DNA of 64,000 bases from Halorientalis sp. LT38. Its GTDB lineage: Archaea > Halobacteriota > Halobacteria > Halobacteriales > Haloarculaceae. Made by a program: the position numbers and the translations under genes. Below the pieces are notes generated by a model. The model did no database searches and had not been told where the DNA came from. It saw nothing but the letters and a program-made list of their open reading frames with translations. Positions within the stretch are counted from its first letter, which is position 1, and the number at the start of each line of letters is the position of its first letter. This document shows, one piece after another, positions 10,255 to 33,625 of this stretch. Where the stretch lies: assembly GCF_037031225.1 (NCBI RefSeq), contig NZ_JAYEZN010000001.1, forward strand, positions 2,604,001 through 2,668,000. Direction: 5' to 3'.

Positions 10255-10262
10255 CGGATCGC

Positions 10263-14279: not shown

Positions 14280-16679
14280 ATGAGTAAGCACGAAGCCGTC
14301 TCCGAGGAGACGGTCGACCGGGAACCCGACGAGGAGACAGACGTCGTCGGGTCGTCCGAGGAGCGCCTCGACGCCGTGAGCAAGATCATCGGCGAGGCCG
14401 AGTACACGTACGACATCGAGAAGCCCCGGATGTTGCACGTCGAACTCGTCCACAGCCAGCACGCACACGCGGAGATCCTCGACGTCGACACCAGCGCCGC
14501 CGAAGCGATGTCCGGGGTCGCGGCGGTGATCACCGGCGAGGACGTCCCGGACAATCGCTTTGGCTCCGGGATCGACGACGAGTACATCCTCCCCAAGAAC
14601 AAGGTCCGGTTCGTCGGCGAACCGGTCGCCGCCGTCGCCGCCGAGACCGAGGAGATCGCCCGCGAGGCCACCGAGGCCGTCGAGGTCGAGTACGAACCCC
14701 TCGAGGCGGTCTTCGACACGCAGGAGGCGCTCAAGGAGGACCCGCCCGCGGTCGTCCACGACGACCTCCACGACTACGACACGAGCGACGTGCTCGAACC
14801 GCGACTGGATCCCGACCGGCCGAACCTCTACGCCAACCACCGCATCCGGACCGGCGACATCGAGGCCGGATTCGAGGAGGCCGACCACGTCTACGAGGGC
14901 TCGTTCGACACGGACATGATGCACCACGTCCAGATGGAGCCCCACGTCAGCGTCGCCAAGTGGACGCCCGAGGACGAACTCAAGGTGTGGACCTCCACGA
15001 ACACGACCTACCGCGTGAAGAACATGCTCGCGGCGGCCTTCGACGTGCCCTCCTCCTCGGTCAACCTCGAAGTGCCCTTCGTCGGCGGTAGCTTCGGCGG
15101 GAAGGAAGGCGTCACCGAACCGCTCGCGGCCGCGGTCGCCCAGCACACCGACCACCGACCGGTCAAACTGGCCTTCACGCGCCAGAACCAGTTCATCGAG
15201 GGGACCTACCGGACGCCCTTCGAGACGGAGCTGAAGATCGGCGTCACGGACGACCAGGAGATCACCGGCCTGCAGGTCAAGACCTACCTCGGCGGCGGAG
15301 CCTACGCCGGCACTGGCTTCCTGGTCACCCGCAACTGCGGCTTCGCGGCCGTCGGCACCTACGACATCCCGAATCTGAAGTTCGACTCCTACGGCGTCTA
15401 CACCAACCTCCCCATCGCCGGCTCCTTCCGGGGCTTCGGCAACTCACAGCTCATCTTCGCCATCGAGTCGCTGATCGAGGACGCCGTAATGGACCAGGGC
15501 TGGGACCCCATCGCCTTCCGCGAAAAGAACACGATGGAGGAGGGCGACGAGAACCCGGCCGGCGAGGTGATGAAGAGCATGGGGGCAAAGGAGTGTCTCG
15601 ACCGCGCCGCCACGGCCATCGACATGGACGAACGCGACCGGGCCGCCGAGGACGACGAGTGGCTCCGCGGCGTCGGCCTCGCGCAGGGGAGCAAGTACAG
15701 CATGGCGCCCACCGCGTCCAGCGCGTTCGTGAAGGTCCACGGCGACGGCAAGATCGAGGTCCGGACCACGGCCGAGGAGATCGGCACCGGGTCGATGACC
15801 GTCCTCGCCCAGATCGCCGCCGAGGAGTTCGGCGTCGACCTCGACGACGTGCGCGTCCTCCGCGGGGACACCGAGGTCACGCCCTACGACGACGGGTCGA
15901 TCTCCAGCCGACTCACCTTCAACACGGGCAACGCCGTCCGGAAGGCCTGCCACGACGCCAAGGAACAGCTCTACCAGCACGCCGCCGCGAAGTTCGACGT
16001 CGAACCGGAGGACCTCGCGACCGAGGGCGGCGAAGTGTACGTCCAGGGCGAGACCGACGAGGACGAGCGGATGCCCTTCGCGGACCTGTTCGAGCCGACC
16101 GTCTTCGCCGGCGGCGGGTTCCTGAAGGAGGGCGGCGAGATCCTGGGGAAGGCCACCTGGCACTCCCCGGTGAAGAACGTCGACCCGGAGACGGGACGGG
16201 GCGACCGCCTGACGGCCTTCTACACCCACGGCGCGCAGGCGTGTGACCTGGAGATCAACAGGTACACCGGCGAGGTCCGGTTCAACAAGTTCGTCTCCGT
16301 CTACGACGTCGGCAACGCGATCAACCCGAAGATGGTCGAAGGCCAGCTCGAGGGCGGCATCAGCATGGGGATCGGCTCCACGCTGTACGAGGCGCTGACC
16401 CACGACAACGGCCGCATCGACAACGCGAACCTGCTCGACTACAAGGTGCCCTTCTCGACCGAACACCCGCTGAACATCGAGACGCAGATCGTCGAGTCCG
16501 CACACGAAGACGGGCCCTACGGAGCCAAAGGGGTCGGCGAAGCGGTCCTGATCCCGAGCGCTGCGGCCATCGGGAACGCCATCAAGGACGCGACCGGCGG
16601 GCGACTGGGGAAGATTCCGTTCACGCCCGAGATGTTGCTCGGAGCGGTGGAAAACGGATCGGATTGCGCGCCGAAGTAA
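14280..16679 (+). CDS. xanthine dehydrogenase-family molybdopterin-binding large subunit (copy 2)
   Basis: 799 residues from the ATG at 14280, leaderless by its TATA box. Domain order is as in copy 1 with a 20-residue acidic N-terminal extension. Active-site features: GGSFGGKEG with Glu276 (the substrate-contact Glu of purine-type enzymes is kept), GSFRGFGNSQ with Arg384, GTGSMTVLAQIAAE and YGAKGVGEA with the catalytic Glu754. It therefore differs from copy 1 at the Glu/Leu position and in the loop around the Arg, so the two probably have different substrates. No CO-dehydrogenase AYxCSFR loop. Partners are the FAD and 2Fe-2S subunits on the opposite strand on either side. Confidence 0.92.
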   Translation: MSKHEAVSEETVDREPDEETDVVGSSEERLDAVSKIIGEAEYTYDIEKPRMLHVELVHSQHAHAEILDVDTSAAEAMSGVAAVITGEDVPDNRFGSGIDDEYILPKNKVRFVGEPVAAVAAETEEIAREATEAVEVEYEPLEAVFDTQEALKEDPPAVVHDDLHDYDTSDVLEPRLDPDRPNLYANHRIRTGDIEAGFEEADHVYEGSFDTDMMHHVQMEPHVSVAKWTPEDELKVWTSTNTTYRVKNMLAAAFDVPSSSVNLEVPFVGGSFGGKEGVTEPLAAAVAQHTDHRPVKLAFTRQNQFIEGTYRTPFETELKIGVTDDQEITGLQVKTYLGGGAYAGTGFLVTRNCGFAAVGTYDIPNLKFDSYGVYTNLPIAGSFRGFGNSQLIFAIESLIEDAVMDQGWDPIAFREKNTMEEGDENPAGEVMKSMGAKECLDRAATAIDMDERDRAAEDDEWLRGVGLAQGSKYSMAPTASSAFVKVHGDGKIEVRTTAEEIGTGSMTVLAQIAAEEFGVDLDDVRVLRGDTEVTPYDDGSISSRLTFNTGNAVRKACHDAKEQLYQHAAAKFDVEPEDLATEGGEVYVQGETDEDERMPFADLFEPTVFAGGGFLKEGGEILGKATWHSPVKNVDPETGRGDRLTAFYTHGAQACDLEINRYTGEVRFNKFVSVYDVGNAINPKMVEGQLEGGISMGIGSTLYEALTHDNGRIDNANLLDYKVPFSTEHPLNIETQIVESAHEDGPYGAKGVGEAVLIPSAAAIGNAIKDATGGRLGKIPFTPEMLLGAVENGSDCAPK

Positions 16680-17424: not shown

Positions 17425-18255
17425 TCACAGCGAATCGAGGTCTGGGAGTAATTCCGCTCTGATGTCGTTTAGGTGTTTCGTCGTGTTCCGGACGTTGGTA
17501 ACCGTTGACGGGGAGACCTCGGCGGAGAGGGTGTCCGGGTCGGCGTCGAGGGTCCCGCGCTCCTCGCCGCTGGGGTCGATCACGGTCGAGGCGCCGAAGT
17601 GGGTCTGGCCCCCCTCGGTGCCGGCGCGGTTGACGCCGACGACGTAGACGGAGTTCGAGACGGCGATGCCGGTGAGTTCCTTCACCCAGACGGCGTCGCG
17701 GTTCTCCTCGCCGAAGCTACAGGTGGGCACGAAGACCACGTCGGCGCCGCGGAGCGCCTGGACGCGGGCGATCTCCGGGAAGTGTCGGTCGAAGCAGATC
17801 ATCACCCCGATCGTCAGCCCGCCGACGTCGAACACCGGCGCGCCGAGGTCCCCGGGCGAGAAGTAGTAGGTCTCGTTGTAGCCGGGGCGCTGGAAGGGGT
17901 GGAGCTTGCGGTACTTCCCCGCGAGTTCCCCGTCCGAATCGACGATCAGCGCCGTGTTGTAGTAGCGGCCACCGGGGTAGCCCTCCTCGAACACCGGCGC
18001 GACGACGGCGGTGTCGAGGTCGGCGGCCGTCTCGCGGATCCGCGCGACGAAGTCGCCGTCGTCGCGGACGGCGAGGTCGAAGTTCTCGGGGTCCTGTTCG
18101 GCCGGGAAGTACGGCGTGGCGAAGTACTCGGGGAGGCAGGCCACGTCGGCCTCGGCCGCGGTCTCCGCCAACACGTCCATCGCCCGCTCGAGGTTCTCCT
18201 CGGGCGAGTCGTCCGGGCCGGCCTCGAACTGGACGGCGGCGACGTTCGGGCTCAT
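17425..18255 (-). CDS. carbon-nitrogen hydrolase (nitrilase superfamily)
   Basis: 276 residues from the ATG at 18255. The Glu-Lys-Cys catalytic triad is visible: Glu43 in CLPEYFATP, Lys117 in KYRKLHPFQR and Cys154 in MICFDRHFPE. Length and the CFDRHFPE signature are closest to N-carbamoylputrescine amidase/beta-ureidopropionase-type enzymes, which release ammonia (and CO2) from amides or carbamoyl compounds. The start overlaps the cyclase gene stop by four bases, so both are made together. In the island it could hydrolyse an amide produced after ring opening; the substrate is not predictable. Confidence 0.9.
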   Translation of the reverse strand: MSPNVAAVQFEAGPDDSPEENLERAMDVLAETAAEADVACLPEYFATPYFPAEQDPENFDLAVRDDGDFVARIRETAADLDTAVVAPVFEEGYPGGRYYNTALIVDSDGELAGKYRKLHPFQRPGYNETYYFSPGDLGAPVFDVGGLTIGVMICFDRHFPEIARVQALRGADVVFVPTCSFGEENRDAVWVKELTGIAVSNSVYVVGVNRAGTEGGQTHFGASTVIDPSGEERGTLDADPDTLSAEVSPSTVTNVRNTTKHLNDIRAELLPDLDSL

Positions 18256-18896
18256 TCGTCGCGGATCACGAAGACCCGGGCCGGCGCCCCGTCGCCGTTG
18301 GCCAGTCGCATCGGCACGACGTAGGTGGTGAACTCGTCCGGAAGCCCGTCGCAGTTGACCACGTTCTCGACGATCACCTTGTCGGCCTCGAGCAGCGTGT
18401 AGTGGTTCCGGTAGCCCTCGTCGCCGGGGTCGATCGCGGCGTCGGTGATCAGCCCGCGGCCGCCCTGCTCGACGACGTACTCGGCGATCTCCTCGGCGTA
18501 GTAGGGGTTGTCGCCGTAGAACGCCTGGGTCCCCTCGTGCTCGTCGCTCCACCCGGTGTGGACGAAGAGGAACTCCCCCTCCTCCAGGGGACCGGGCAGG
18601 CGCTCTTCGACCTGTTCGAGCGTGATCTCCGTGTTGGGTTCCGCGACGTCGCGCACGTCGGCGCGTTTCGTGGGGCGGATCGTCTCGGTCAGCTCGATGT
18701 CGCCGATCTTCCGGCCGTCGGCGTCGAAGTGGTACGGCGCGTCCATGTGCGTGCCGATGTGGGTCGTGGCCGCCATGAAGTCGCTCTCGTAGTCCGACTC
18801 CTCGTGTCGGACGACCCGGCCCTGCCGGAACGTCGGCAGCTTCGGGGGGACGCTCGTGTCCTCGTCGACGCGGATAGATAGGTCTTGGATCTCCAT
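18252..18896 (-). CDS. cyclase-family metal-dependent hydrolase (kynurenine formamidase-like)
   Basis: 214 residues from the ATG at 18896 (MEIQDLSIRV). The metal-binding signature HIGTHMDAPYHF (about residues 46-57) is intact, with additional ligands expected in the C-terminal half. Family members hydrolyse N-formyl, lactone or cyclic amide bonds (kynurenine formamidase, isatin hydrolase). A TATA box TATTTATA (18923-18930, minus strand) sits about 30 bases upstream, which argues for this start over a longer one at 18956. It leads a two-gene operon with the nitrilase-family gene. Confidence 0.9.
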   Translation of the reverse strand: MEIQDLSIRVDEDTSVPPKLPTFRQGRVVRHEESDYESDFMAATTHIGTHMDAPYHFDADGRKIGDIELTETIRPTKRADVRDVAEPNTEITLEQVEERLPGPLEEGEFLFVHTGWSDEHEGTQAFYGDNPYYAEEIAEYVVEQGGRGLITDAAIDPGDEGYRNHYTLLEADKVIVENVVNCDGLPDEFTTYVVPMRLANGDGAPARVFVIRDE

Positions 18897-18922
18897 CTTC
18901 GACTCGACGTGAACGAGCGAGC

Positions 18923-18930
18923 TATAAATA
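18923..18930 (-). promoter_or_regulatory. TATA box of the cyclase/nitrilase operon
   Basis: TATTTATA on the minus strand, about 30 bases upstream of the ATG at 18896; it supports a leaderless transcript and decides the start. Confidence 0.5.
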
Positions 18931-19025
18931 GATTCCCACCGGTTTCGATCGCACACAGCAGGGAGCCGGCGCGTACGTGCGGTCAGCCGGGCGGTCGCCC
19001 TCGGGACGCGGTTCTGGTCGGACCG

Positions 19026-19514
19026 TCAGCCGTCGTACTGCTCGGCGGCGTGCTCGACGGCGTCGAAGATCTTCGTGTAGCCGGTACAGCGACAGAGGTT
19101 CCCCTTCAGGTACTGCTTCATCTCCTCGCGACTCGGATCGGGGTTCTCCTCGAGCATCGCGACCGAGGAGACGACGAAGCCCGGGGTGCAGTAGCCACAC
19201 TGCATCCCGAACTCCTCGATGAACCCCTCCTGGACGGGGTGGAGGTCCTCGCCGTCGTCGCTGCGGTCAGCCAGCCCCTCGACGGTCGTGACCGCCTTGC
19301 CGTCGGCCTGGTGGGCCGGGATCAGGCAGGACTTGACCGGCGTGCCCTCGACGAGCGTCATACAGGAGCCACATTCGCCGACCTCGCAGGCCTCTTTCGT
19401 CCCGGTCAACTCGAGTTCGTTCCGGATGGCGTCCCGGAGCGGGACGCCCGGCTCGACCGAGAACGTCTGTTCCTCGCCGTTCAACTCGATCGTGATGTCG
19501 TCGATTGCGCTCAT
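19026..19514 (-). CDS. 2Fe-2S small subunit of a molybdenum hydroxylase (copy 2)
   Basis: 162 residues from the ATG at 19514. All eight ligands are present: Cys43, 48, 51, 63 (plant-type ferredoxin cluster) and Cys106, 109, 141, 143 (helical domain cluster, QCGYCTPG and CRCTGY). It is clearly paralogous to the copy at 11261, with a shorter C-terminus. The start overlaps the FAD-subunit gene by four bases. Electron transfer between molybdopterin and FAD. Confidence 0.93.
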   Translation of the reverse strand: MSAIDDITIELNGEEQTFSVEPGVPLRDAIRNELELTGTKEACEVGECGSCMTLVEGTPVKSCLIPAHQADGKAVTTVEGLADRSDDGEDLHPVQEGFIEEFGMQCGYCTPGFVVSSVAMLEENPDPSREEMKQYLKGNLCRCTGYTKIFDAVEHAAEQYDG

Positions 19515-20392
19515 CGTGGTGCCTCCGCGAGTGGGGGCGCGTCCGACCGGCGGAGCGCGGTCGTGATCGCCCGTTTGGTCATGACCCGGAACAGGTGTTT
19601 CCGGTACTCGACGTCGTCGCCGACGTCGTCGATCAGTTCGAGGTCGTCGACGATCGCCATGGCGACCTCGTCGACGGTCTCCCGGTCGATCCGGTCGCCG
19701 ACCAGCAGCGATTCGATCTCGTCGGGAACGCGTTTCGGCACGGGCGCGCCGGCGCAGTAGGCCAGGCGGGCGTCGACGCACGTCTCGCCGTCCTCGGCGT
19801 CGGGGACGACCAGCGCGGCGATGCCGGCCGTCGACCAGCCGCCGGGGGCCTCGGTGTCGCTGGCGTACGCGCCGCCGGCCCTCGCGGGCGGGCGCTCGAA
19901 CTCGATGCCGGTGACGATCTCGTGGGGGGCCAGCTCCGTCAGGTAGTAATCGAGGAAGAACTCGGACAGGTCGTGACGGCGCGTCCCGTCCCCGTCGAAG
20001 CTGACGGCCGCGGCGTCGAGACACTGGAGCGCCGGCGGCAGGTCCTGGGCCGGGTCGGCGTGGGAGACGCCGCCGCCGATCGTCCCAGCGTTGCGGACGG
20101 GGACGTCGCCGATCGCCTCCACGGCGTCGCGGAGCAGGTCGAGGTCGGCACAGAGCTCCGCGTCCAGCAACTCGGAGTACGTCACGAGCGCGCCGATCTC
20201 GACGGTGTCGTCGGACGCCGTCACCTCGTCGAGGTCCGGGACCGCCGTGATGTCGACGAGGGCGTCCGGTGAGATGAGCCCCTGTCGCAGGAGCGGCATC
20301 ATGCTCTGGCCGCCGGCGACGATCTTCGCCTCGTCGACCTCCTTCAAACGGTCGACCGCGTCTGCGAGCGAACCGGGTTGGTAATACTGCAC
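19511..20392 (-). CDS. FAD-binding medium subunit of a molybdenum hydroxylase (copy 2)
   Basis: 293 residues, same length as copy 1 but diverged. FAD motifs are VAGGQSMMPLL (about residues 25-35) and TIGGGVSHADPAQDLP (about residues 104-119). The middle region contains a longer, different loop (ARAGGAYASDTEAPGG) compared with copy 1. Adjacent to the 2Fe-2S gene (four-base overlap) and divergent from the first substrate-binding protein gene. The 215-base divergent region carries several AT-rich boxes. Confidence 0.92.
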   Translation of the reverse strand: MQYYQPGSLADAVDRLKEVDEAKIVAGGQSMMPLLRQGLISPDALVDITAVPDLDEVTASDDTVEIGALVTYSELLDAELCADLDLLRDAVEAIGDVPVRNAGTIGGGVSHADPAQDLPPALQCLDAAAVSFDGDGTRRHDLSEFFLDYYLTELAPHEIVTGIEFERPPARAGGAYASDTEAPGGWSTAGIAALVVPDAEDGETCVDARLAYCAGAPVPKRVPDEIESLLVGDRIDRETVDEVAMAIVDDLELIDDVGDDVEYRKHLFRVMTKRAITTALRRSDAPPLAEAPR

Positions 20393-20607: not shown

Positions 20608-21885
20608 ATGAGTGATTCTCACAACCCCAGCGAGCGGGATAGCGACCGAACTGTGACTCGCCGATCGGCGATGAAGGGCCTCACCGCCGTGGCTGGCGCG
20701 GGTACCATCGCTCTCGCGGGCTGTACCAGCGGCGGCGGTGGCGAGAGCGGCGGACCGATCAAGATCGGCCTCCAGGCCGACCTGACCGGCGCGCTGTCGA
20801 TCTACGGCTTCTGGCACCGGCGCGTGCTCGAAAACTACGTCGACAGCGTCAACGAGGACGGCGGCATCGACGGCCGCGAGGTGGAACTAGCGGTCGAAGA
20901 CACCGAGACCGACGCGGAGACCGGCGGGCAGGTATTCCGCCGCCTCGTCCAGCAGGAGGGCGTCGACTTCGTCATCGGCTCGCAGTCCTCGGGCGTCTCG
21001 ATCGCGACGAACCCGCTGGCGAAGCAGATGCAGGTGCCGTACTTCCCGCTGGGGGAGGCCCCCTCGATCACCGGTGAGGACGGTAATCGCTGGGTCGTCC
21101 GGAACAACCACAGTACCGAACACGCGGCCGAGATCGCCGTCGAACACGGGATCGAGAGCGGCTCGCAGTGGACGATCATCTACCAGGACTACGCCTTCGG
21201 CCAGCAGTACCGGGACGCGGTGACCGCCGCCGTCGAACGGCGCGACGGCGAAGTGCTCGAGTCCATCGGCGTGCCCGTCGGCGAGAGCGACCTGAACTCC
21301 TACCTGAACTCGGTCCCCGAGGACACGGAGGTCCTCTTCAACGCGCTGATCGGCGCCTCCTCGCTCGGCTTCCTCCAGCAGAGCGCGGACCTCGGGACGC
21401 CCGGCCAGCGGCTGGGTGCCATCGCGTCCATCGAGGGCGTCGACGTCAGCGACACCGGCGAGGGTGCCGAGGGCGCCGAGTACGTGACGATGCTCCCGCG
21501 CGACACCAGCGGCGTGGACGTCGACGGGGTCGGGCGACTCCGGGAGATGGCGAACCCGTCGGGCACCGACAACATCTACCTCGGCGGCCACATCAGCGCC
21601 TCCTACGAGTCCCTCTCGTGGATCGAAGACGCCGTGACGGAGACCGAGTGGGCCGGCTCGGACGACAACCAGGCGCTCATCGAGTGGTTCGAGGGCGGCC
21701 CCTCCGTCGAGGGCAGCGAGCGCTACCCCCAGGGACCGAAGTTCTTCCGCGGGGAGGACCACCAGGCGTTCATGGACATGCACATCGAGCGCATCGAGGG
21801 CGGCTCGCTGACCGACGTCAAGCGCGTCGAGGTCGACGAACCGACCTTCGAGGCGCGCGCCGACCTGGCCGGCCAGGAGTTCTGA
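20608..21885 (+). CDS. ABC transporter substrate-binding lipoprotein, branched-chain amino acid/amide type (copy 1)
   Basis: 425 residues. The N-terminus is a twin-arginine signal (VTRRSAMKG) followed by a lipobox LAGC near residue 36 and a Gly/Ser linker, so it is exported folded and anchored to the membrane. The mature part is a type I periplasmic-binding fold of the LivK/AmiC/UrtA group: IKIGLQADLTGALS at the start, EDGGIDGREVEL, and FVIGSQSSGV. Such proteins bind amino acids, amides, urea or aromatic acids. It probably serves the LivHMGF permease at 26.7-30.1 kb. The paralogue at 22080 follows directly. A T-rich terminator-like stretch lies at 21927-21940. Confidence 0.92.
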   Translation: MSDSHNPSERDSDRTVTRRSAMKGLTAVAGAGTIALAGCTSGGGGESGGPIKIGLQADLTGALSIYGFWHRRVLENYVDSVNEDGGIDGREVELAVEDTETDAETGGQVFRRLVQQEGVDFVIGSQSSGVSIATNPLAKQMQVPYFPLGEAPSITGEDGNRWVVRNNHSTEHAAEIAVEHGIESGSQWTIIYQDYAFGQQYRDAVTAAVERRDGEVLESIGVPVGESDLNSYLNSVPEDTEVLFNALIGASSLGFLQQSADLGTPGQRLGAIASIEGVDVSDTGEGAEGAEYVTMLPRDTSGVDVDGVGRLREMANPSGTDNIYLGGHISASYESLSWIEDAVTETEWAGSDDNQALIEWFEGGPSVEGSERYPQGPKFFRGEDHQAFMDMHIERIEGGSLTDVKRVEVDEPTFEARADLAGQEF

Positions 21886-24276: not shown

Positions 24277-24846
24277 TCAGTCCTCGAGTTCGTCGATTTG
24301 CAGCCCACCGATACGCGGGTGCGGTCGGCCGCCGTCGGTCGCGACGACGATCAAGACGAGTTCGTCGGCCGCGGGCGCGTCCTCGATCCGGACCGGCATC
24401 GCGTCGTAGTGGGTCCGGACGTAGGCCTCGTCCTTGTAGTGGGTCGGGACGTCGAGGCAGGTCCCGGGGCCGCCGCGTTTCTTCGCGCTGGGGATGATGG
24501 CCTCGCCGCCGCCGACCGCTTCCCGCAGCGGCGTCCCGAGTTCGGGGTGGAGCATCGCCGCGACGTGTTCGAGTTCGCCCTCGGTGCCGACGATCCCGCC
24601 CTTCCCGTAGCCTTCGACCGTCTCCGGGCCACCGAGCCTGTCCACGGCCGCCGTTGCGAGCCGCCCGCCCAGGTCTGCGCCCCACTCGGTGAGCAGCGAC
24701 AGGTCCTCCTGCCACTCACCGGCGTAGGGGTTGTCGATCACGGCCGCCGCGGCCGCCTTCGTGACCGGGTCGGCGAGCGCTCGCTCGCCGTCGCGGTAGG
24801 TCGTCGATTCGATCACCGTCTGCGTTCTGATCGTTGGGTCGGTCAT
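24277..24846 (-). CDS. amino acid synthesis family protein (PF06684/DUF1185)
   Basis: 189 residues from the ATG at 24846. The family pattern is clear: DPVTKAAAAAVIDNPYAGEW near residue 27, GGPETVEGYGKGGIVG, GELEHVAAMLHPELG, then GGGEAIIPSAKKRGGPGTCL and DGGRPHPRIGGL at the end. Members occur widely in bacterial catabolic clusters but no reaction is firmly established to my knowledge. It overlaps the enamidase-like gene by four bases, so the two are co-translated. That pairing suggests a role in the same hydrolytic step, possibly as a second hydrolase or an isomerase. Confidence 0.85.
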   Translation of the reverse strand: MTDPTIRTQTVIESTTYRDGERALADPVTKAAAAAVIDNPYAGEWQEDLSLLTEWGADLGGRLATAAVDRLGGPETVEGYGKGGIVGTEGELEHVAAMLHPELGTPLREAVGGGEAIIPSAKKRGGPGTCLDVPTHYKDEAYVRTHYDAMPVRIEDAPAADELVLIVVATDGGRPHPRIGGLQIDELED

Positions 24847-25988
24847 GACTGGTCGATGGTCGCGGTCGTCTTCGCGGGGGCGGTGTTCCGGCTCCCGTCG
24901 ACCAGGACGTCCCCGTCGACGAGTACGGCGTCGATCGCCGGGTAGGTGCCGGCGTCCAGTGCCTCGAGCGCCGTCTCGGCCTGACTCCCCTTCGGCGGTC
25001 CCATCAGCGTCAGGTCCGCCGGTCGGCCAGTCTCGATCCGGCCGGTGTCGAGGCCGTGGTGTCGGGCCGTGGTGCCGGTGGCGAGACAGAGGATCTCCTC
25101 GGGGGCGACCTCGGTCATCCCACAGAGCGTCGCGGCCTCCAGCAGGACGCCCAGCGGGGTCACGCCCGTTCCAGAGGGGGTGTCGGTGCCCAGCTGGACG
25201 CGGTCGAGTTCGTCCCGGTCGGCGGCCATCTCCAGCACGTCGACGGCGACGCGCTGGTTGCCCGCCAGCACCAGGTCGAGGACGATGTCGGTCTCGGTGA
25301 CCAGTTTCGCCACCTCGTCGTCGGGGACGGGCGTCGGGCCGCCGTTGACGTGGGCGGCGATATCGGGGCCGACGTCGACGAACATCTCGGCGTCGGTCGA
25401 CTTCACGCCGGGGAGGCTCGTGCCGCCGCAGTGCATCAGGACGATCATGTCCCGCTCGTGGCCCCAGGCGACGAGGTTCCGGGCGCGTTCGCGGTCCTCG
25501 ACCGGCATCAGGAACTTCAGGCGCTCGACGCCTTCTTGATGGACGTCCTCGACGTCGGCCTCGGTCATCTCGCCGTCGAGGATCAGCGTGCCGCCCCGTA
25601 CTTTGACGCCGCCCGGGCGCTCGTTGGCGAGGGACTTCCGGGCGAGCGTGGCGAGCGATTTCGCGCTCTCGACGTCGTCCGGCCGGCCGGGGAGGTGCGG
25701 TTCCCCGTTCGAGATCATCGAGGTGATCCCGCCGTGCAGGTAGCTCTCGCACCAGCCGAGCGTCCGTTGCCGGGGCGTGTAGTCGCCGAACACCGGGTGG
25801 ACGTGCGAGTCGATCAGTCCGGGCGTCAAGGTGAGACCGCTCGCGTCGATCGTCTCGTCCGCTGTCGTCGTCGTGGCGCCCAGTTCCCGGATCTCGCCGT
25901 CTTCCAGATAGACCGACTCGACGTCGATCACCGGTTCCTCGAGGCGACCGGTGACGACACGGCCCAGGTTCGTGACGAGCGTGCTCAC
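24843..25988 (-). CDS. enamidase-like amidohydrolase
   Basis: 381 residues, amidohydrolase superfamily. Metal ligands in order: His62/His64 in DSHVHP, His186 in MHCGGTS, His213 in AAHVNGGP and Asp269 in GTDTPSGTG. Long stretches recall enamidase of Eubacterium barkeri, which opens 6-oxo-1,4,5,6-tetrahydronicotinate to 2-formylglutarate and ammonia: TPRQRTLG, LHGGITSMISNGEPHLPGRP, NGGPTP, DTPSGTGVTPLGVL and SRNTAPAK near the end. The bridging Glu of the bacterial enzyme appears to be replaced by Lys158 (RLKFLM), which might be carboxylated. It is the middle gene of a cupin-enamidase-PF06684 operon with four-base overlaps. Confidence 0.85.
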   Translation of the reverse strand: MSTLVTNLGRVVTGRLEEPVIDVESVYLEDGEIRELGATTTTADETIDASGLTLTPGLIDSHVHPVFGDYTPRQRTLGWCESYLHGGITSMISNGEPHLPGRPDDVESAKSLATLARKSLANERPGGVKVRGGTLILDGEMTEADVEDVHQEGVERLKFLMPVEDRERARNLVAWGHERDMIVLMHCGGTSLPGVKSTDAEMFVDVGPDIAAHVNGGPTPVPDDEVAKLVTETDIVLDLVLAGNQRVAVDVLEMAADRDELDRVQLGTDTPSGTGVTPLGVLLEAATLCGMTEVAPEEILCLATGTTARHHGLDTGRIETGRPADLTLMGPPKGSQAETALEALDAGTYPAIDAVLVDGDVLVDGSRNTAPAKTTATIDQS

Positions 25989-26374
25989 GACTCCTGCACC
26001 TCCCGATCGCGGATCGCTTCCTCCGGGCCCTGGGGTGCGAAGATCCAGAGCTTCCGGAGCGGTCCGGACCCGACGTTGACGTGCCTGTGATGGACGCCCG
26101 GGGGGATCACGGCCGCCTGGCCCGCGGTGAGACCGTGGGTCTCCTCGTCGGTGACGATCTCCGCCTCGCCCTCGAGGACGTAGACGATCTCCTCGACCTC
26201 GCGCACGTGTCGCGAGCCTTCGGCGCCCGGTTCGAAGGTGACGACGCCGACGCTCACGTTCTCGACGCCGACGGTCTCGTCGGCGACGATCTGGCTGGCG
26301 AACTCGCCGCCCCCGAATCGGGGGAGGTCGGCGGTGTCCCGGACGACGATCCCCGCGTCTGTGTCGTCGGTCAC
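25985..26374 (-). CDS. cupin-domain protein
   Basis: 129 residues from the GTG at 26374 (TDDTDAGIVVRD). A single cupin barrel: motif 1 PGAEGSRHVREVEEIVYVLEGEAE with His/Glu ligands, and motif 2 PPGVHHRHVN. It could be a dioxygenase-like metal enzyme or a small-molecule-binding regulator. Its start is unusual: an ATG at 26412 opens a 13-codon mini-ORF whose TGA overlaps this GTG. A start at 26461 in the same frame would include the promoter region, so I reject it. First gene of the operon with the enamidase. Confidence 0.8.
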   Translation of the reverse strand: MTDDTDAGIVVRDTADLPRFGGGEFASQIVADETVGVENVSVGVVTFEPGAEGSRHVREVEEIVYVLEGEAEIVTDEETHGLTAGQAAVIPPGVHHRHVNVGSGPLRKLWIFAPQGPEEAIRDREVQES

Positions 26375-26412
26375 GGTCGATCGCCCTCGTCGAAACTGTA
26401 TTGGTAACTCAT
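26371..26412 (-). other. leaderless 13-codon mini-ORF overlapping the cupin start
   Basis: ATG at 26412 encodes MSYQYSFDEGDRP and ends with TGA at 26373-26371; the GTG of the cupin gene starts one base earlier (GTGA overlap). The TATA box at 26441-26448 puts the transcript start close to this ATG, so ribosomes would translate the mini-ORF first. Either a coupled leader peptide or, less likely, an N-terminus joined by frameshifting. Confidence 0.35.
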
Positions 26413-26440
26413 ACCACGGGGCGACGTTTCGGGAGACGGG

Positions 26441-26448
26441 ATATATAG
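26441..26448 (-). promoter_or_regulatory. TATA box of the cupin-enamidase operon
   Basis: TATATAT core on the minus strand, about 32 bases before the mini-ORF ATG at 26412. Confidence 0.5.
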
Positions 26449-26549
26449 CTTGTCCGTGCACCGGCCGGTACCGACGGTGGCGGCGTCGGTCGGCCGAACC
26501 CGGCCGAGGGCGGCCGGGACCGTTCAGTTGACCTGCGCTTCCAGCAACC

Positions 26550-26585: not shown

Positions 26586-26723
26586 ATGAGAGTGCATCCC
26601 ACTGGCAGGTGTGTCACGAGCAGGTGCCGCGTACGTGGACGAGGCCGCGAACTTCCGTCGAGAACTCGCCCGTCGTCGGCGGGGATTCGCGTGGCGGGCC
26701 CATCGCCCGCTGGCACCTACTAG
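26586..26723 (+). other. possible 45-codon leader ORF before livH
   Basis: ATG at 26586 lies at the distance from the TATA box expected for a leaderless start, and the frame runs to TAG at 26721-26723, one base before the permease ATG at 26725. The product would be Arg-rich (MRVHPTGRCVTSRCRVRGRG at its start), unlike haloarchaeal proteins, so it is more likely a regulatory leader than a protein gene, or chance. Confidence 0.25.
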
Positions 26724-26724
26724 A

Positions 26725-27591
26725 ATGGCGCTGGAAAGTGACCTCGCGGTGGCGATCCTGAACGGCGTCACCTGGGGGCTAATCGTGGCGCTGATCGCGC
26801 TCGGGCTCAACCTGATCTACGGGTTGCTCGAGATCGTCAACATGGCCCACGGCTCGCTGTACATGCTCGGTGCCGTCATCGGCTGGTTCGCCATCGACGC
26901 CACCGGGAGCTTCGCCGCGGCGCTGTTGATCGCGCCCCTCGCCGTGGGTGCGATCGGGATGACCGTCGAACGCGGGATCCTCCGGCCCATCGAGGACGAC
27001 CTCACGATTACGCTGATCGCGACGTTCGGGCTCCTGTTGATGTTCGACCAGCTGGCGCTGATGACGTTCGGCCCCGGCACCCGCTCGGTGTCGGCGCCCA
27101 TCGCCGGCACGGTCTCGTACGCCGGCATCTCCTACTCGCTGTACCGGCTGGTCGTCGGCGTGGTCTCGATCTTCCTGATGGCCTGTCTGTACCTGTTCCT
27201 CTTCCGGACCCGGTACGGGACCTGGATGCGGGGCGTCCGTCAGGACCGCGAGACCGCCAGCGCGCTGGGGATCCCCACCTCGAAGGTGTACGTCTTCACG
27301 TTCGGCCTCGGCGCGTTCCTCGCGGCGCTGGCCGGCGTGTTGCTGGCGCCGATCGTCAGCGTGGGCCACCTGATGGGGCTCGACATCCTCGCGGTGGCCT
27401 TCATGGTCGTGATCGTCGGCGGCCTGGGCTCCCTGCGTGGCGTCCTCGTCGCCAGCCTGATATACGCACTCGTCGAGAACGTTAGTACCCTATTCATGAC
27501 GCCAGTCGAAGCGCGCATCCTGACCTTCGCGCTCATGATCTCGTTCGTGTTGATTCGTCCCGACGGCATCTTCCGGGGTGCGTCCGCATGA
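26725..27591 (+). CDS. livH: branched-chain amino acid-type ABC transporter permease LivH
   Basis: 288 residues from the ATG at 26725. An in-frame start at 26611 would add an Arg-rich leader that looks non-coding. About eight hydrophobic helices; the LivH signature region is NLIYGLLEIVNMAHGSLYML near residue 30, and VVGGLGSLRGVLVASL near residue 230 matches the cytoplasmic loop that contacts the ATPases. With LivM it forms the channel of the uptake system for the two binding proteins. Its stop overlaps the livM start (ATGA). Confidence 0.93.
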   Translation: MALESDLAVAILNGVTWGLIVALIALGLNLIYGLLEIVNMAHGSLYMLGAVIGWFAIDATGSFAAALLIAPLAVGAIGMTVERGILRPIEDDLTITLIATFGLLLMFDQLALMTFGPGTRSVSAPIAGTVSYAGISYSLYRLVVGVVSIFLMACLYLFLFRTRYGTWMRGVRQDRETASALGIPTSKVYVFTFGLGAFLAALAGVLLAPIVSVGHLMGLDILAVAFMVVIVGGLGSLRGVLVASLIYALVENVSTLFMTPVEARILTFALMISFVLIRPDGIFRGASA

Positions 27592-28655
27592 GCCGCACCT
27601 TCGAGACGCCGCTGGGCACGCTAACGGCGAAACACGGCGGCTTGATCGTCCTCGCGATCATCGCCGTGATCTTCCCCTTCACCGTCGGGAACTTCCTGTT
27701 GTTCCTGGCGGCGTCGATCCTCGCGCTGGGGCTGTACGGTGCCTCGTTCGACCTGATATACGGCTACACGGGGCTGTTGACGTTCGGCCACGCCGTCTTC
27801 TACGGCGTGGGCGCCTACGCGGCCACCTTCGCGATCCAGGACCACGGGCAGGGCATCCTCACCGCCATGCTCGTCGGATTCATCCTCACCGCGATCATCG
27901 CCGTCGGCATCGGCCTCATCGCCATCCGGGTCAGTTCACACGGGTTCGTCATCGTCACGATCCTGATCGTGCTGATCGCGAACCTCGCCGCGGTGAGCAT
28001 GACGGCGATCACCGGCGGTACCGACGGGGTCAGCGTCATGCTCCCCGAATTCACCGTCCCGGCCCTCGGGGAGTTCACGATGTTCGACCCGATGTTCAGG
28101 TACTTCTTCGTCCTGGCAGTGGTCGCCGTGTCGCTGCTGGCCATGAACCGGCTCGTGAACTCGCCGATCGGTCTCGTCTTCCGGATGATCCGCGACAACG
28201 AACAGCGCGCGAAGATGCTCGGCTACAACGTCACCACCTACAAGCTGATCGCCTTCAGCGTCAGCGGGGCCTTCGCCGGCCTGGCGGGCGTGCTGAGCAT
28301 GTACGTCACCGGCTTCGTGAGCGCGTCGCACTTCAGCCTCATCGTCTCCGGCGACGCGGTGATCTTCACGCTGGTCGGCGGCCGCGCGACGCTGATCGGT
28401 GCCATCTTCGGGGCGATCCTGATCGAGGGCGCCTCGAACTTCGTGAGCGGGTTCACTGACGCCTACCCGCTGATCATCGGTGGACTCCTGCTGTTCACGG
28501 TGATCTTCGAGCCCGAGGGCCTGGTCGGGATGTTCGACCGGATCCGCGACGCCCTGGGCGACCGCGGCCTGCTGTCCGGGTCGGACGACGAGGAGTCGTC
28601 GCCCGAACCCGACGCCGATCCCAACCCGGCCCAGGAGGTGACGACCGATGAATGA
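27588..28655 (+). CDS. livM: branched-chain amino acid-type ABC transporter permease LivM
   Basis: 355 residues, about ten hydrophobic helices and a hydrophilic acidic tail of about 35 residues (after FDRIRDALGDRG). Family landmarks are GYTGLLTFGHAVFYGVGAYA near residue 60 and the GVLSMYVTGFVS and VGGRATLIGAIFG segments near residues 235-270. The stop lies eight bases inside livG. The gene order H-M-G-F is the standard Liv order. Confidence 0.93.
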   Translation: MSRTFETPLGTLTAKHGGLIVLAIIAVIFPFTVGNFLLFLAASILALGLYGASFDLIYGYTGLLTFGHAVFYGVGAYAATFAIQDHGQGILTAMLVGFILTAIIAVGIGLIAIRVSSHGFVIVTILIVLIANLAAVSMTAITGGTDGVSVMLPEFTVPALGEFTMFDPMFRYFFVLAVVAVSLLAMNRLVNSPIGLVFRMIRDNEQRAKMLGYNVTTYKLIAFSVSGAFAGLAGVLSMYVTGFVSASHFSLIVSGDAVIFTLVGGRATLIGAIFGAILIEGASNFVSGFTDAYPLIIGGLLLFTVIFEPEGLVGMFDRIRDALGDRGLLSGSDDEESSPEPDADPNPAQEVTTDE

Positions 28656-29394
28656 GACCGTCCTCCGGACGGACGGCCTGACCCGCAAGTTCGGCCAGCT
28701 GGTGGCCGTCAACGACGTCGACCTCGAGATCTACGAGGGCGAGATCCGCGGCCTGATCGGCCCGAACGGCGCCGGGAAGACGACCGTCTTCAACATGCTC
28801 TCGGGGATGCTCGAACCCACCTCGGGCGAGATCTGGTTCAACGAGGAGGAGATCACGCACATGCCGCCGCACAAGATCACCTCCCGCGGGATGGCGCTCG
28901 CGTTCCAGATCACGAGCATCTTCCCCGAACTCACGGTCACGGAGAACGTCCTCGGCGCGCTCAACGGGCAAAAGCGGTTCCTGAGCCCGCTCGAACGGTA
29001 CGGCGACGACGAGGACGGAATCGCACGCGCGATGGACATCCTCGACCGCGTCGGGCTGGCCGAACACGCCGAGGAGACGGCGGAGAACCTCTCCCACGGG
29101 GACCAGAAGGTCCTCGAGATGGCGCTGGCGCTGGCGGGCGATCCGGAACTGCTACTGCTGGACGAACCGGCCGCGGGGCTCTCGGCCAGCGAGACCCGGA
29201 CCGTGGTCGACCTGCTCGAGGAACTCCGCGGGGAGATTACGATCATGCTCATCGAACACGACATGGACCTGGTGATGGAACTGGTCGACAACCTGACCGT
29301 GCTCCACCACGGCGAGATCATCGCCGAGGGATCGCCGGCCGAGATCAAGGCGAACGAACAGGTGCAAGAAGTCTACTTCGGGAGGGAGTACTGA
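28648..29394 (+). CDS. livG: branched-chain amino acid-type ABC transporter ATP-binding protein LivG
   Basis: 248 residues. Walker A GPNGAGKTTVF near residue 37, signature NLSHGDQKVLEMALAL (SHGDQ is the LivG variant of the ABC signature), Walker B LLLLDEPAAGLS and the switch His in IEHDM. A strong ribosome-binding site GGAGGTGA (28634-28641) lies six bases before the ATG at 28648, inside the end of livM. The C-terminal tail with EVYFGREY is typical of LivG. Confidence 0.95.
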   Translation: MNETVLRTDGLTRKFGQLVAVNDVDLEIYEGEIRGLIGPNGAGKTTVFNMLSGMLEPTSGEIWFNEEEITHMPPHKITSRGMALAFQITSIFPELTVTENVLGALNGQKRFLSPLERYGDDEDGIARAMDILDRVGLAEHAEETAENLSHGDQKVLEMALALAGDPELLLLDEPAAGLSASETRTVVDLLEELRGEITIMLIEHDMDLVMELVDNLTVLHHGEIIAEGSPAEIKANEQVQEVYFGREY

Positions 29395-30095
29395 TGCTCG
29401 AAGTCGACTCCATCAACACGTTCTACGGCAAGAGCCACATCCTCCACGACGTGAGCTTCGAGGCCGGGGCCGACGAGGTGGTCGCACTGCTGGGCCGCAA
29501 CGGCGTCGGCAAGACCACGACCATGAAGTCCGTCATCGGCCTGACGCCGCCGCAATCCGGCACCGTACGCTTCGAGGGCGAGGTCGTCTCCGGCGACTCG
29601 CCGAGCTCGATCGCCAACCGGGGGATCGGCTACGTCCCCCAGGACCGGGGTATGTTCCCGGAGCTGACCGTCGAGGAGAACCTGACGATGGGGCTCGGGA
29701 CGGCCAAGCGCGACGAGACGATCATGGCGGAGATCTTCGATCGGTTCCCCCGCGTCGAGGAGCGCATGCACCAGAAGGCGGGGACCCTCTCCGGCGGCGA
29801 ACAGCAGATGGTGGCGATGGCCCGCGCACTGATGCGCGACCCGAAGCTCGTCCTGATGGACGAGCCCACCGAGGGGCTGATGCCCTCGCTGATCCCCGAG
29901 ATCGCCGATATCACCGAGGAGATCGCCGACTCGGGGTACAGCATCGTCATCGTCGAACAGAACGTCGACCTGGTGCTCGACATCGCCGACCGGATCTACC
30001 TGATGGACAACGGCCGGATCCACGAGCAGGCGACGCCCGCGGACCTGCGCGACGACGAAACGATCCTCGAAAAGTACCTCGGAGTTGGTATCTAA
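29394..30095 (+). CDS. livF: branched-chain amino acid-type ABC transporter ATP-binding protein LivF
   Basis: 233 residues. Walker A GRNGVGKTTTM near residue 36, Q-loop PQDRGMFPELTVEENL, signature LSGGEQQMVAMARAL, Walker B LVLMDEPTEGL and the switch His replaced by Gln (VEQNVDLVL), the usual LivF pattern. The ATG at 29394 shares its first base with the livG stop. A GGGAGG stretch lies just upstream. Second ATPase of the uptake system. Confidence 0.95.
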   Translation: MLEVDSINTFYGKSHILHDVSFEAGADEVVALLGRNGVGKTTTMKSVIGLTPPQSGTVRFEGEVVSGDSPSSIANRGIGYVPQDRGMFPELTVEENLTMGLGTAKRDETIMAEIFDRFPRVEERMHQKAGTLSGGEQQMVAMARALMRDPKLVLMDEPTEGLMPSLIPEIADITEEIADSGYSIVIVEQNVDLVLDIADRIYLMDNGRIHEQATPADLRDDETILEKYLGVGI

Positions 30096-31093
30096 TGATA
30101 GACCTCGAACTCAGTCCGATCTCGCGACGCATCGTCGAAGAACTGGCAACCGTCACGGCCGACGAGGAGGTGCTCGTCATCTCCGACCCCGAGAAGGTCA
30201 GCGTCGGGCGCGCCATCACCAACGCGGCGCGCTCGACGGGCGCGAACGCGACCCTCTCGATCATGCCGCGACTGGACGCCCACGGGAACGAACCGCCGGG
30301 ACCCGTCGCCGCCGCGATGAAGGAAGCCGACGTGGCCTTCACGGCGACGACCCACGCCATCACCCACACCCAGTCCCGGCTGGCGGCGTCGGACGCCGGC
30401 ACGCGCGTCGTCGTCCTCCGTGGGGTCACCGAGGACATGCTGATCGAGGGCGGGATGAACACCGACTACCAGCGCCTCAAGGAAGTCACCGGCGCCACGC
30501 GCGACGTGCTCGACGCCGCCAGCGAGGCCCACGTCACGAGTCCTGCCGGGACCGACATGCACCTCAACCTGGACGGGAGCTCGGCCTTCTCGCTCGACGG
30601 CTACTTCCACGACTACGGCTTCTCGGCGCTGCCCGGCGGGGAGTCGCCGACCTGCCCGCAGAAGAAGTCCGGCACCGACGGCACCGTCGTCATCGACTAC
30701 TCGATGGACAACATCGGCCACCTGGACGACCCGATCGAGCTCACCTTCGAAGCGGGGACGCTCACCGGCATCGCGGGCGGCAGTGAAGCCGACGAGCTCC
30801 GTGAGATCGTCGACGCGGCCGGCGAGAACGCCGGCAACCTCGCCGAGTTCGCTATCGGGACCAATCCCGACGCGCGACTCATCGGTAACCTCGCCGAGGA
30901 CAAGAAGAAAGCCGGGACCGTGCACTTCGCCATCGGCGACGACACGAGTCTGGGCGGCACGCTCGAGAGCGAGATCCACTTCGACGGACTCGTCCTCGAC
31001 CCGACCGTCGAACTCGACGGCACGGTCGTCCTCGACGAGGGGACCCTCGACGTCGAGGGCATCCTGGAACTCGCAGACGAAATCCGGGACTGA
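30095..31093 (+). CDS. NicX/M29-aminopeptidase-like metalloprotein
   Basis: 332 residues. Such proteins are usually annotated as M29 leucyl aminopeptidase, but the closest named relative I recall is NicX, the Fe(II) 2,5-dihydroxypyridine dioxygenase of bacterial nicotinate degradation. Shared segments: AHVTSPAGTDMHLNL, GTVVIDYSMDNIG, GTLTGIAGGSEADELRE and the ligand segment EIHFDGLV (His295, Asp297). Where NicX has a third His (SHIGWG), this protein has Glu251 (AEFAIG), and His277 (VHFAIG) is a further candidate ligand as in M29 peptidases. So dioxygenase and hydrolase activity are both open. It is the last gene of the Liv operon (start overlaps the livF stop), which ties it to use of the imported compound. 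Confidence 0.75.
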   Translation: MIDLELSPISRRIVEELATVTADEEVLVISDPEKVSVGRAITNAARSTGANATLSIMPRLDAHGNEPPGPVAAAMKEADVAFTATTHAITHTQSRLAASDAGTRVVVLRGVTEDMLIEGGMNTDYQRLKEVTGATRDVLDAASEAHVTSPAGTDMHLNLDGSSAFSLDGYFHDYGFSALPGGESPTCPQKKSGTDGTVVIDYSMDNIGHLDDPIELTFEAGTLTGIAGGSEADELREIVDAAGENAGNLAEFAIGTNPDARLIGNLAEDKKKAGTVHFAIGDDTSLGGTLESEIHFDGLVLDPTVELDGTVVLDEGTLDVEGILELADEIRD

Positions 31094-31183: not shown

Positions 31184-32317
31184 TTATTCGGCCGCGGACC
31201 GGCCGTGGATCGCTCCGTCCCGTTCCGAGAGGTGCTTCGGGTCCCGGTCGTTCGCGACGGCCAGGAGTTCGGCGACGATGCTGTGTGCGATCCCGTAGGG
31301 CGTGCCGCCGCCCAGGTCGAGGCCGATGGGCGTGTAGATCCGCTCCAGATCGTCGTCGGTCGGCGTCGCGGCGGTCTCGTCGTCGGCCATCGCCGCGACC
31401 AGTTCCTCGAAGCGCTCGCGCGGGCCCATGAGCCCGACGTAGGGGACCGGGACGTCGAGCAGTTCCTCCAGTGCGAGCCGGTCGTCGACGAAGTTGTGGG
31501 TCATGACGACGACGTAGGTGTTCTCGTCGAAGGACTCGACGTCGCGGATCTGCGCCGGCGAGGTCGACCGTACGGCGTCGGCGGCGGGGAACTGGTCCGG
31601 GCCGGTGGTGCCGCGGAAGCCGACGACGTGGACGCGGAAGTCGACGTTCGCGGCCAGTTCGACGACGGGACCCACGTCGTGTCCGGAGCCGACGACGACG
31701 AGTTTCGGGGCGGGTGTGAGCGCGTCGACGAACACCTCGGCCCACCCGTCGTCGGTCTCGACGCGGACGACGCCGCTGCGTTCCCGGTCGAGATGCTCCC
31801 GCACCTCGGGTTCGACGGCGTCGCGGAGCCACGCCGGCGCGTCAGCGTCGTCGGCGAACCCCTCGCCCGGGCGGTAGTCGGTCCGGCTCCAGGTGGGGAC
31901 GTCGCCGTCGAGGACCGTGACGACGCCGACGGGGTCGTTCGCTGCCACGGCGTCGAGGGCCGACCGTTGGTCCGCGGTCAGCGGTTCGAGGAGGACGTCG
32001 ATGATCCCGTTACAGCCGACGCCGAGCCCCCAGACGTCCTCGTCGTCCTCCATCATGTCGTAGGTCTCGACGCGCGGCCGCCCGCTCTCGAGGACGTCGG
32101 CCGCGATGCGGTTGATCTGGTCCTCCAGACACCCCGCGGTGACGCTGCCGACGCCGTCGCCCTCGGGGGTGACGAGCATCTTCGCGCCGGGCCGCCGGTA
32201 GGCGTTCCCCTCGACGCCGATCACGGTCGCGAGGACCGCCGGTTCGCCCGCTTCGAGCAGTTCGCGAGCCCTGGCGTACACCGTTGACTCGGGAACGCTC
32301 CACCTGCTGTCCGTCAT
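31184..32317 (-). CDS. xdhC: XdhC-family molybdenum hydroxylase maturation protein
   Basis: 377 residues from the ATG at 32317. The XdhC/CoxI domain covers about residues 15-95 (VLATVIGVEGNAYRRPGAKML and GSVTAGCLEDQI). A middle hydrophilic region follows, then a Rossmann-like XdhC C-terminal domain (LVVVGSGHDVGPVVELA and VVMTHNFVDDRLALEEL). XdhC binds molybdenum cofactor and helps the sulfuration and insertion needed by xanthine-dehydrogenase-type enzymes. It fits the two hydroxylases in the island. Convergent with the NicX-like gene and divergent from the glutaryl-CoA dehydrogenase gene. Confidence 0.9.
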   Translation of the reverse strand: MTDSRWSVPESTVYARARELLEAGEPAVLATVIGVEGNAYRRPGAKMLVTPEGDGVGSVTAGCLEDQINRIAADVLESGRPRVETYDMMEDDEDVWGLGVGCNGIIDVLLEPLTADQRSALDAVAANDPVGVVTVLDGDVPTWSRTDYRPGEGFADDADAPAWLRDAVEPEVREHLDRERSGVVRVETDDGWAEVFVDALTPAPKLVVVGSGHDVGPVVELAANVDFRVHVVGFRGTTGPDQFPAADAVRSTSPAQIRDVESFDENTYVVVMTHNFVDDRLALEELLDVPVPYVGLMGPRERFEELVAAMADDETAATPTDDDLERIYTPIGLDLGGGTPYGIAHSIVAELLAVANDRDPKHLSERDGAIHGRSAAE

Positions 32318-32430
32318 TACCGAGAAGTCGCACTCCCGAACTGTAAGCGTTTTCCCCACGCCGGCGTCGACGCGCGAGGGGCGACGGATCCCGAAAAACT
32401 GGTGAGAACGCAGCGTGGTATCCACCATCA

Positions 32431-32437
32431 TTATAAC
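32431..32437 (+). promoter_or_regulatory. TATA box of the glutaryl-CoA dehydrogenase gene
   Basis: TTATAAC, about 26 bases before the ATG at 32460; predicts a leaderless mRNA in spite of the GGAGGTGG directly before the start. Confidence 0.5.
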
Positions 32438-32459
32438 CGGTCCAACGCAAGGAGGTGGC

Positions 32460-33623
32460 ATGCTCGACTACTTCGACGTGGAGTCGGACGTGTCCGCAGA
32501 GGAACGGATGATCCGGGACACGGCCTGCGAGTTCGTCGACGAGAACGTACGCCCCGACATCGGCGAGCACTGGATCGAGGGCACCTTCCCCAAAGACCTG
32601 ATCCCCGAGATGGGCGAGATGGGCTTTTACGCCCCGAATCTGGAGGGCTACGGCTCGCCCAACGTCTCGGAGACGGCGTATGGACTCCTGATGCAGGAAC
32701 TGGAAGCCTGCGACTCGGGCCTGCGCTCGATGGCGTCCGTGCAGGGCGCGCTCGTCATGTACCCCATCCACGCCTACGGTTCGGAGGAACAGAAAGAGGA
32801 GTGGCTCCCCAAACTCGGTTCCGGCGAAGCGGTCGGCTGCTTCGGCCTCACAGAGCCCGAACACGGCTCGAACCCCACCGCCATGGAGACCCGTGCCGAG
32901 GAAGCCGACGGCGGCTATCTCCTGAACGGGTCGAAGACGTGGATCACGAACTCACCGATTTCGGACGTGGCGATCGTCTGGGCGCGTGACCGTACCGACC
33001 CCGATACGCCGGTCCGGGGCTTTTTGGTCGAAACTGACCGCGACGGCGTCTCCACGAACAAGATCTCCGAGAAGCTTTCGCTGCGGGCCTCTATCACGGG
33101 CGAGATCGGCCTGAACGACGTCTTCGTGCCCGAGGAGAACCTCCTGCCAGGTGCAGAGGGCATGGGCGGACCCCTCGGATGCCTCACGCAGGCCCGCTAC
33201 GGCATCGCCTGGGGCGCTATCGGCGCCGCGCGGGACTGCTTCGAGACCGCGCGGCAGTACGCCAAAGACCGCGACCAGTTCGGCGGCCCGATCGGCCGGT
33301 TCCAGCTCCAGCAACAGAAACTCGCCGAGATGGCCACCCAGATCACCCTGGCGCAACTCCTGGCACACCGGCTCGCGGACCTGAAAGAGCGCGGCGAGAT
33401 GCGCCCCCAGCACGTCTCGATGGCAAAGCGCAACAACGTCCGCATGGCCCGTGACGAGTCCCGCATCGCCCGCGAGATGCTCGGCGGCAACGGCATCACG
33501 GCGGACTACTCGCCCATGCGTCACATGGCCAATCTGGAGACGGTCTATACCTACGAGGGCACGCACGACATCCACACCCTCATCCTGGGCGAGGACCTCA
33601 CCGGGCTCGCCGCCTACCAGTAA
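32460..33623 (+). CDS. gcdH: glutaryl-CoA dehydrogenase (acyl-CoA dehydrogenase family)
   Basis: 387 residues. It oxidatively decarboxylates glutaryl-CoA to crotonyl-CoA. Beyond the general acyl-CoA dehydrogenase fold it shows the glutaryl-CoA-specific pattern: DSGLRSMASVQGALVM with Arg89 at the position of the gamma-carboxylate-binding Arg of the human enzyme, GCFGLTEPEHGSNP, KLSLRASITGEI, ARYGIAWGAIGAA and TYEGTHDIHTLILG with the catalytic Glu366. Short-chain acyl-CoA dehydrogenases lack several of these. The CoA-transferase gene starts two bases after its stop. It needs an electron-transfer flavoprotein encoded elsewhere. Confidence 0.88.
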   Translation: MLDYFDVESDVSAEERMIRDTACEFVDENVRPDIGEHWIEGTFPKDLIPEMGEMGFYAPNLEGYGSPNVSETAYGLLMQELEACDSGLRSMASVQGALVMYPIHAYGSEEQKEEWLPKLGSGEAVGCFGLTEPEHGSNPTAMETRAEEADGGYLLNGSKTWITNSPISDVAIVWARDRTDPDTPVRGFLVETDRDGVSTNKISEKLSLRASITGEIGLNDVFVPEENLLPGAEGMGGPLGCLTQARYGIAWGAIGAARDCFETARQYAKDRDQFGGPIGRFQLQQQKLAEMATQITLAQLLAHRLADLKERGEMRPQHVSMAKRNNVRMARDESRIAREMLGGNGITADYSPMRHMANLETVYTYEGTHDIHTLILGEDLTGLAAYQ

Positions 33624-33625
33624 CC

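Follow-up and report, generated by a model that had tools for sequence, protein, structure and literature searches.

A haloarchaeal enamidase relative with a lysine in place of the Gly-Glu pair at the metal bridge, and the subfamily to which it belongs

Within the 64,000 nucleotides of haloarchaeal DNA analysed here (the window), the gene at 24843..25988 on the minus strand encodes an enamidase-like amidohydrolase of 381 residues (GTG start), in which a single lysine, Lys158, stands where the E. barkeri enamidase (2vun) has a Gly-Glu pair. It is one of a group of homologues, termed K-type, that are set apart from the Glu-bearing E-type by this exchange and by the loss of one residue. With a probability of roughly 0.8, the protein is an enamidase-family amidohydrolase with a binuclear centre bridged by carboxylated Lys158, the backbone lying deeper than in enamidase, and it would hydrolyse the C-N bond of an enamide or lactam, either cyclic or derived from a ring.

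The window is haloarchaeal in appearance: it has 68% G+C, its proteins are mostly acidic, and it encodes the rod-determining factor RdfA, a family that we take to be haloarchaeal. In the 3.58-Mb, 99.97% complete genome the amidohydrolase gene is present in a single copy, the second match being short and weak. Its G+C content by codon position (0.72/0.47/0.91) is a coding signal, and the differences from the copy in another genome (G351) number 55/20/206 at codon positions 1/2/3. As 171 of the codon changes are synonymous and 66 non-synonymous, the gene is under purifying selection. Carriers are rare, amounting to 5 of 391 genomes sampled from the same class, source genome included; a homologue at 58.8% on a named Haloarcula plasmid again points to the haloarchaea (13 of the 25 plasmid records were extracted and read). 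Viral contigs yielded no relative, either by single-protein search (12 stretches matched a pattern) or by alignment search (33 stretches). Among the NCBIfam matches listed (25 of 49), no model reached its cut-off, and these were low-scoring generic amidohydrolase models only.

Membership of the amidohydrolase superfamily (PF01979) follows from the Pfam score (53.4 bits, cut-off 25), the barrel fold and the HxH, two His and Asp residues. The preliminary description had seen a long match to the bacterial enamidase, and this was borne out: the best PDB match in a phmmer search is 2vun, over residues 2-378 (E 7.4e-98) with the NGGP and DxPSGTG regions aligned, followed at a distance by atrazine chlorohydrolase (E 4.6e-7). 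An AlphaFold model of the protein (pLDDT 93) superimposes on 2vun with Z 58.5 and rmsd 1.5 over 378 residues at about 42-43% identity, the runner-up chain being 2paj (Z 31.4). Since 2vun leads by far in both comparisons, the protein is an enamidase-family amidohydrolase, and 2vun is its only close solved relative. The two have in common the fold, the metal ligands and the PRQ, PGRP, NGGP and SRNT motifs, as in the pairs AHVNGGPTP/SHINGGPTA and LGTDTPSGTG/FGNDAPSGTG (window protein first). Kinship within the family does not fix the reaction, however, as the amidohydrolase KpiC, which shares 28% identity with enamidase, has been reported to be a ring-cleaving dioxygenase (PMC7356986).

Counted along 2vun, the ligand positions are H67, H69, E164, H193, H220 and D276, which we take to be the metal ligands, with E164 bridging. 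The five others are all kept in the window protein, on the minus strand throughout: the H62-x-H64 motif (25797..25805; 2vun H67, H69), which is invariant in the K-type alignment, and, placed by model and alignment, His186 at the end of strand 5 (25431..25433; H193), His213 after strand 6 (25350..25352; H220) and Asp269 after strand 8 (25182..25184; D276). Lys158 itself (25515..25517, minus strand, codon AAG), the K of RLKFLM, occurs without exception in the 14 K-type proteins aligned, alongside all other ligands; in a set of 54 rows, the first His is replaced once, by Gln (L108). One Chloroflexi MAG homologue (L063, about 10760-10900) reads GNAAPSG for GNDAPSG at the ligand Asp, which is either a lost ligand or an assembly error.

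A profile of the 14 K-type proteins places Lys158 opposite Glu164 of 2vun, the extra residue before it being Gly163. When the N-terminal half of the profile is used alone, Lys158 falls opposite the lysine in SSFKIFLS of hydantoinase 1gkp, presumably the carboxylated Lys150, so that the strand-4 lysine of the window protein lines up with one known to be carboxylated. Carboxylated lysines at this same strand, together with cyclic-amide chemistry, are found in hydantoinase, dihydroorotase and dihydropyrimidinase, although the similarity of these cyclic amidohydrolases to the window protein is far lower. Strand 4 of the window model (pLDDT 93) spans residues 156-159 and so includes K158; in an E-type model (pLDDT 94.6) it covers residues 155-159, Glu158 among them. 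The loop at strand 4 is shorter than in 2vun. Taking the strand register from the preceding helix, K158 occupies the position of the E-type Gly and the Glu comes one residue later. The preliminary description, which had aligned Lys158 with the bridging Glu by eye, was therefore right about the place; the change is no plain substitution, but one from GE to K with deletion of one residue.

The division into two types was assessed over 125 aligned rows, made up of 2vun, the window protein, an initial set of 12 loci, 80 loci on genome contigs (of 542 relatives), another 5 on plasmids, and 26 out of a group of 29 genome loci. By motif, 102 are E-type (Gly-Glu, GE[VI]G), 16 bacterial K-type and 6 haloarchaeal K-type, giving 22 K-type rows of 125 plus one unclassed row, L018, which MAFFT had gapped and which on direct reading (GVRRGKLLYEI) is K-type as well. 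Three sequences outside the 125 rows (L106, L108, L113) also read as K-type, L106 and L095 representing one plasmid gene. Among the 14 sequences of an initial alignment, 2vun and the homologues adjoining 6-hydroxynicotinate reductase read [LI]-[LV]-G-E-[VI]-G-[LI] at the bridge; those from Thermomicrobium, Agrobacterium and Shinella are one residue shorter and read [AV]-K-[AF]-G-F-G, and the haloarchaeal ones read L-K-F-L-M, M-K-I-L-F or T-K-I-I-F. The GE[VI]G motif of the E-type is thus absent from the window protein. The NGGP and [TN]D.P.G.G motifs occur in both types and are therefore no guide to substrate. Three genomes, G1275 (L163 and L178), G1364 and G1177, each carry two E-type copies about 9 to 15 kb apart.

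The same exchange is known from the isoaspartyl dipeptidases, for which solved structures exist of Type I, with a bridging Glu, and of Type II, with a bridging carbamylated Lys (PMC5517026, PMC7774594). According to these reports, E156 of the Fervidobacterium enzyme FiBAP bridges two zincs and follows G155 via a cis-peptide, whereas the E. coli enzyme has carbamylated Lys162 (PMC7774594), and in the Colwellia enzyme Glu166 replaces the carbamylated Lys, a protruding loop making up for the shorter side chain (PMC5517026). When E. coli IadA is aligned with chain 8dqn from Leucothrix, GV-K (K162) stands against GVGE, with one residue inserted before the Glu; here too, the exchange occurs within a family and the Lys form is one residue shorter. 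The isoaspartyl dipeptidases differ in family and substrate, and their Lys is the enterobacterial type, whereas the K-type Lys is characteristic of one bacterial and one haloarchaeal clade. Because their GE-versus-K signature is identical, the window protein would be the enamidase-family counterpart of Type II, and a carboxylated Lys158 bridge is the best reading of its metal site. The variant metal centre suggested in the preliminary description is favoured in this sense by the alignments, the strand position and the isoaspartyl dipeptidase precedent. A search of the open literature on enamidase and bridging residues, by titles and the beginnings of abstracts, found no report of a Lys-type enamidase.

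Two other arrangements of the metal site have to be weighed against the carboxylated bridge. An unmodified Lys158 beside a single metal would have a parallel in some one-metal amidohydrolases, among which a type-I dihydroorotase has been published (PMC3880350), but the four His and the Asp expected of a two-metal site are all present, and the sole deviation is the one-residue signature that divides the carbamylated-Lys from the Glu isoaspartyl dipeptidases. Moreover, the Colwellia mutants E166A and E166K are both reported inactive (PMC5517026), so a lysine simply placed at this position is not neutral; a single-metal site is accordingly unlikely. It is more improbable still, to the point of being nearly negligible, that Lys158 merely points inward and that another carboxylate forms the bridge, be it Glu96 (25701..25703, minus strand) or an acid of the loop PVEDRE. 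Glu96 is indeed invariant in the 14 K-type proteins; it occurs just as well in E-type proteins, where the bridging Glu is already in place, and 2vun has Ser instead. This does not fit a compensatory role, and the PVEDRE acids are not conserved and lie after strand 4. With nearly every homologue having Glu at position 96, it is 2vun that is atypical there.

The carboxylated lysine, if such it is, probably arose once or twice, from a glutamate. More distant relatives (L175, L176, L177 and L181, 33-38% identity) read AEIG and are of the Glu-type. Of 124 rows, 59 were kept for a first tree after thinning of near-identical E-type rows and with L018 left out, and in it a weak branch (88/56) separated the bacterial and haloarchaeal K-type proteins together from the other rows. 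A second tree was rooted with three of the four distant relatives, leaving out the motif columns and 14 more E-type rows. In this tree the bacterial K-type forms a clade of 18 rows (100/100), and the haloarchaeal K-type together with L018 one of 7 rows (99/94), both inside an otherwise Glu-type tree. The best rooted tree requires at the fewest two changes; a topology that unites the K-type in one clade is not rejected (p-AU 0.207). Since the outgroups are Glu-type and both K clades lie inside the Glu-type tree, Glu is probably ancestral and Lys derived.

As to the substrate, the preliminary description had expected the same ring opening as in enamidase, and this expectation is not supported. 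Leu283 (25140..25142, minus strand) stands in place of Arg290 of 2vun, an Arg that all 102 E-type rows have; elsewhere the position holds Tyr or Lys in the bacterial K-type, Leu in the haloarchaeal proteins, Gln in L018, and Lys or Leu in the outgroups. From the loss of Arg290 in every K-type row we infer that Arg290 matters for substrate and that the substrate has changed relative to the E-type. The gene neighbourhood differs likewise: 6-hydroxynicotinate reductase (Hnr) is a neighbour at 52 of the 81 E-type loci and at none of the 18 bacterial K-type or the 6 distinct haloarchaeal ones, some loci being short. Genome-wide searches of 19 K-type genomes found no reductase to make the enamidase substrate in the window's genome, its four haloarchaeal relatives or G990. 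A genome-wide mutual exclusion of K-type and reductase was considered and rejected, since 5 of the 19 genomes (5 of 13 bacterial ones) have the reductase.

These data bear on an alternative reading, an ordinary enamidase that hydrolyses 6-oxo-1,4,5,6-tetrahydronicotinate, giving 2-formylglutarate and ammonia, and differs in its metal bridge only. The identity of about 42% to 2vun and the common PRQ, PGRP, NGGP and SRNT motifs would fit it, and whereas two of the five reductase-bearing K-type genomes also have an E-type copy, the other three (G415, G399, G640) have a reductase homologue while only a K-type copy was found in them, which tells against a clean substrate split. Nevertheless, an unchanged enamidase is improbable for the window protein, given the absence of the reductase from its 99.97% complete genome and from the four other haloarchaeal carriers, its absence beside the 18 bacterial and 6 haloarchaeal K-type loci, the loss of Arg290 throughout the K-type and the three genomes that carry both types.

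The amidohydrolase gene lies in an operon on the minus strand that sets it apart from 2vun, overlapping by four bases each a Cupin_2 gene (25985..26461) and a gene for a PF06684 protein (AA_synth, DUF1185; 24277..24846, 217 bits). Around it, the window encodes the molybdopterin-binding large subunit of a xanthine-dehydrogenase-type hydroxylase (14280..16679, plus), the 2Fe-2S and FAD subunits of a molybdenum hydroxylase (19026..20392, minus) and an XdhC-type molybdenum hydroxylase maturation protein (31184..32461, minus; below the curated cut-off). Uptake may be served by an ABC substrate-binding protein (20608..21885, plus; weak match to the urea/branched-chain type), a second one 58% identical to it (22020-23315), and four ORFs (26611..30095, plus) whose sequences read like a pair of permeases and a pair of ATPases belonging to this ABC type. 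Genes for a carbon-nitrogen hydrolase (PF00795) and a cyclase-family protein (PF04199) at 17425..18956 (minus) and for an acyl-CoA dehydrogenase with a family III CoA-transferase (32415..34852, plus) complete an island that looks like one for the uptake and breakdown of an N-heterocycle. An M29-like protein (30095..31093, plus) has as its sole PDB sequence match 2,5-dihydroxypyridine 5,6-dioxygenase (7cn3, E 2.8e-8) and may be a NicX-like ring-cleaving dioxygenase rather than a peptidase. A second set of large (6900-9710, plus), 2Fe-2S (11261-11779, minus) and FAD (11776-12657, minus) subunits at 6900-12657 means that the region encodes two molybdenum hydroxylases.

The order cupin, amidohydrolase, PF06684 is kept in two other haloarchaeal loci (L135, L136), and L135 keeps the whole island, with ten markers, cupin and PF06684 included, within 20 kb. 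The remaining three of the six haloarchaeal loci (L007, L137, L138) have other gene contexts without a PF06684 neighbour, so the pathway is not fixed. PF06684 lies within 300 nt of the amidohydrolase in 13 of 18 bacterial K-type loci and, counted anywhere in the locus, is found at 65 of the 81 E-type loci, 14 of the 18 bacterial K-type ones and 3 of the 6 haloarchaeal ones; being present with both types, it accompanies the family as a whole. Chorismate-mutase-like folds are common to RidA-type enamine/imine hydrolases, and the single ground for regarding PF06684 proteins as possible enamine/imine hydrolases is a fold likeness of this kind. For PF06684 itself, the structure paper describes a chorismate-mutase-like fold but no established function, and in its available text no mention of a functional link to enamidase was found (PMC2954203).

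In the proposed mechanism, two metals would be bridged by carboxylated Lys158 in place of the Glu of the Gly-Glu pair; the longer carboxylated side chain would let the backbone sit one residue deeper, which may account for the deletion. The metals and their bridging hydroxide would then attack an amide C-N bond in the cyclic or ring-derived substrate, an enamide or lactam possibly supplied by the neighbouring molybdenum hydroxylases. The released enamine would decay to aldehyde and ammonia, perhaps aided by the PF06684 operon partner, and the acid product would enter CoA metabolism. A further generalization is doubtful at present: GE-to-K with deletion might be a repeatable route from Glu to a CO2-dependent Lys, taken separately in isoaspartyl dipeptidases and in the bacterial and haloarchaeal K-types, in the last two with a change of substrate, and PF06684 might be a dedicated enamine/imine hydrolase.

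The exchange of Glu and Lys at the metal bridge, the Lys probably carboxylated, is hereby found in a second enzyme family, having been known before from one other, and the K-type constitutes a whole uncharacterised subfamily. The outgroup gives a likely direction, Glu first, and the question of why two types exist, raised by the isoaspartyl dipeptidases, becomes testable by GE-to-K mutants and back. The uncharacterised PF06684 family is tied to relatives of enamidase, and bacterial and archaeal proteins called enamidase by similarity may act on other rings.
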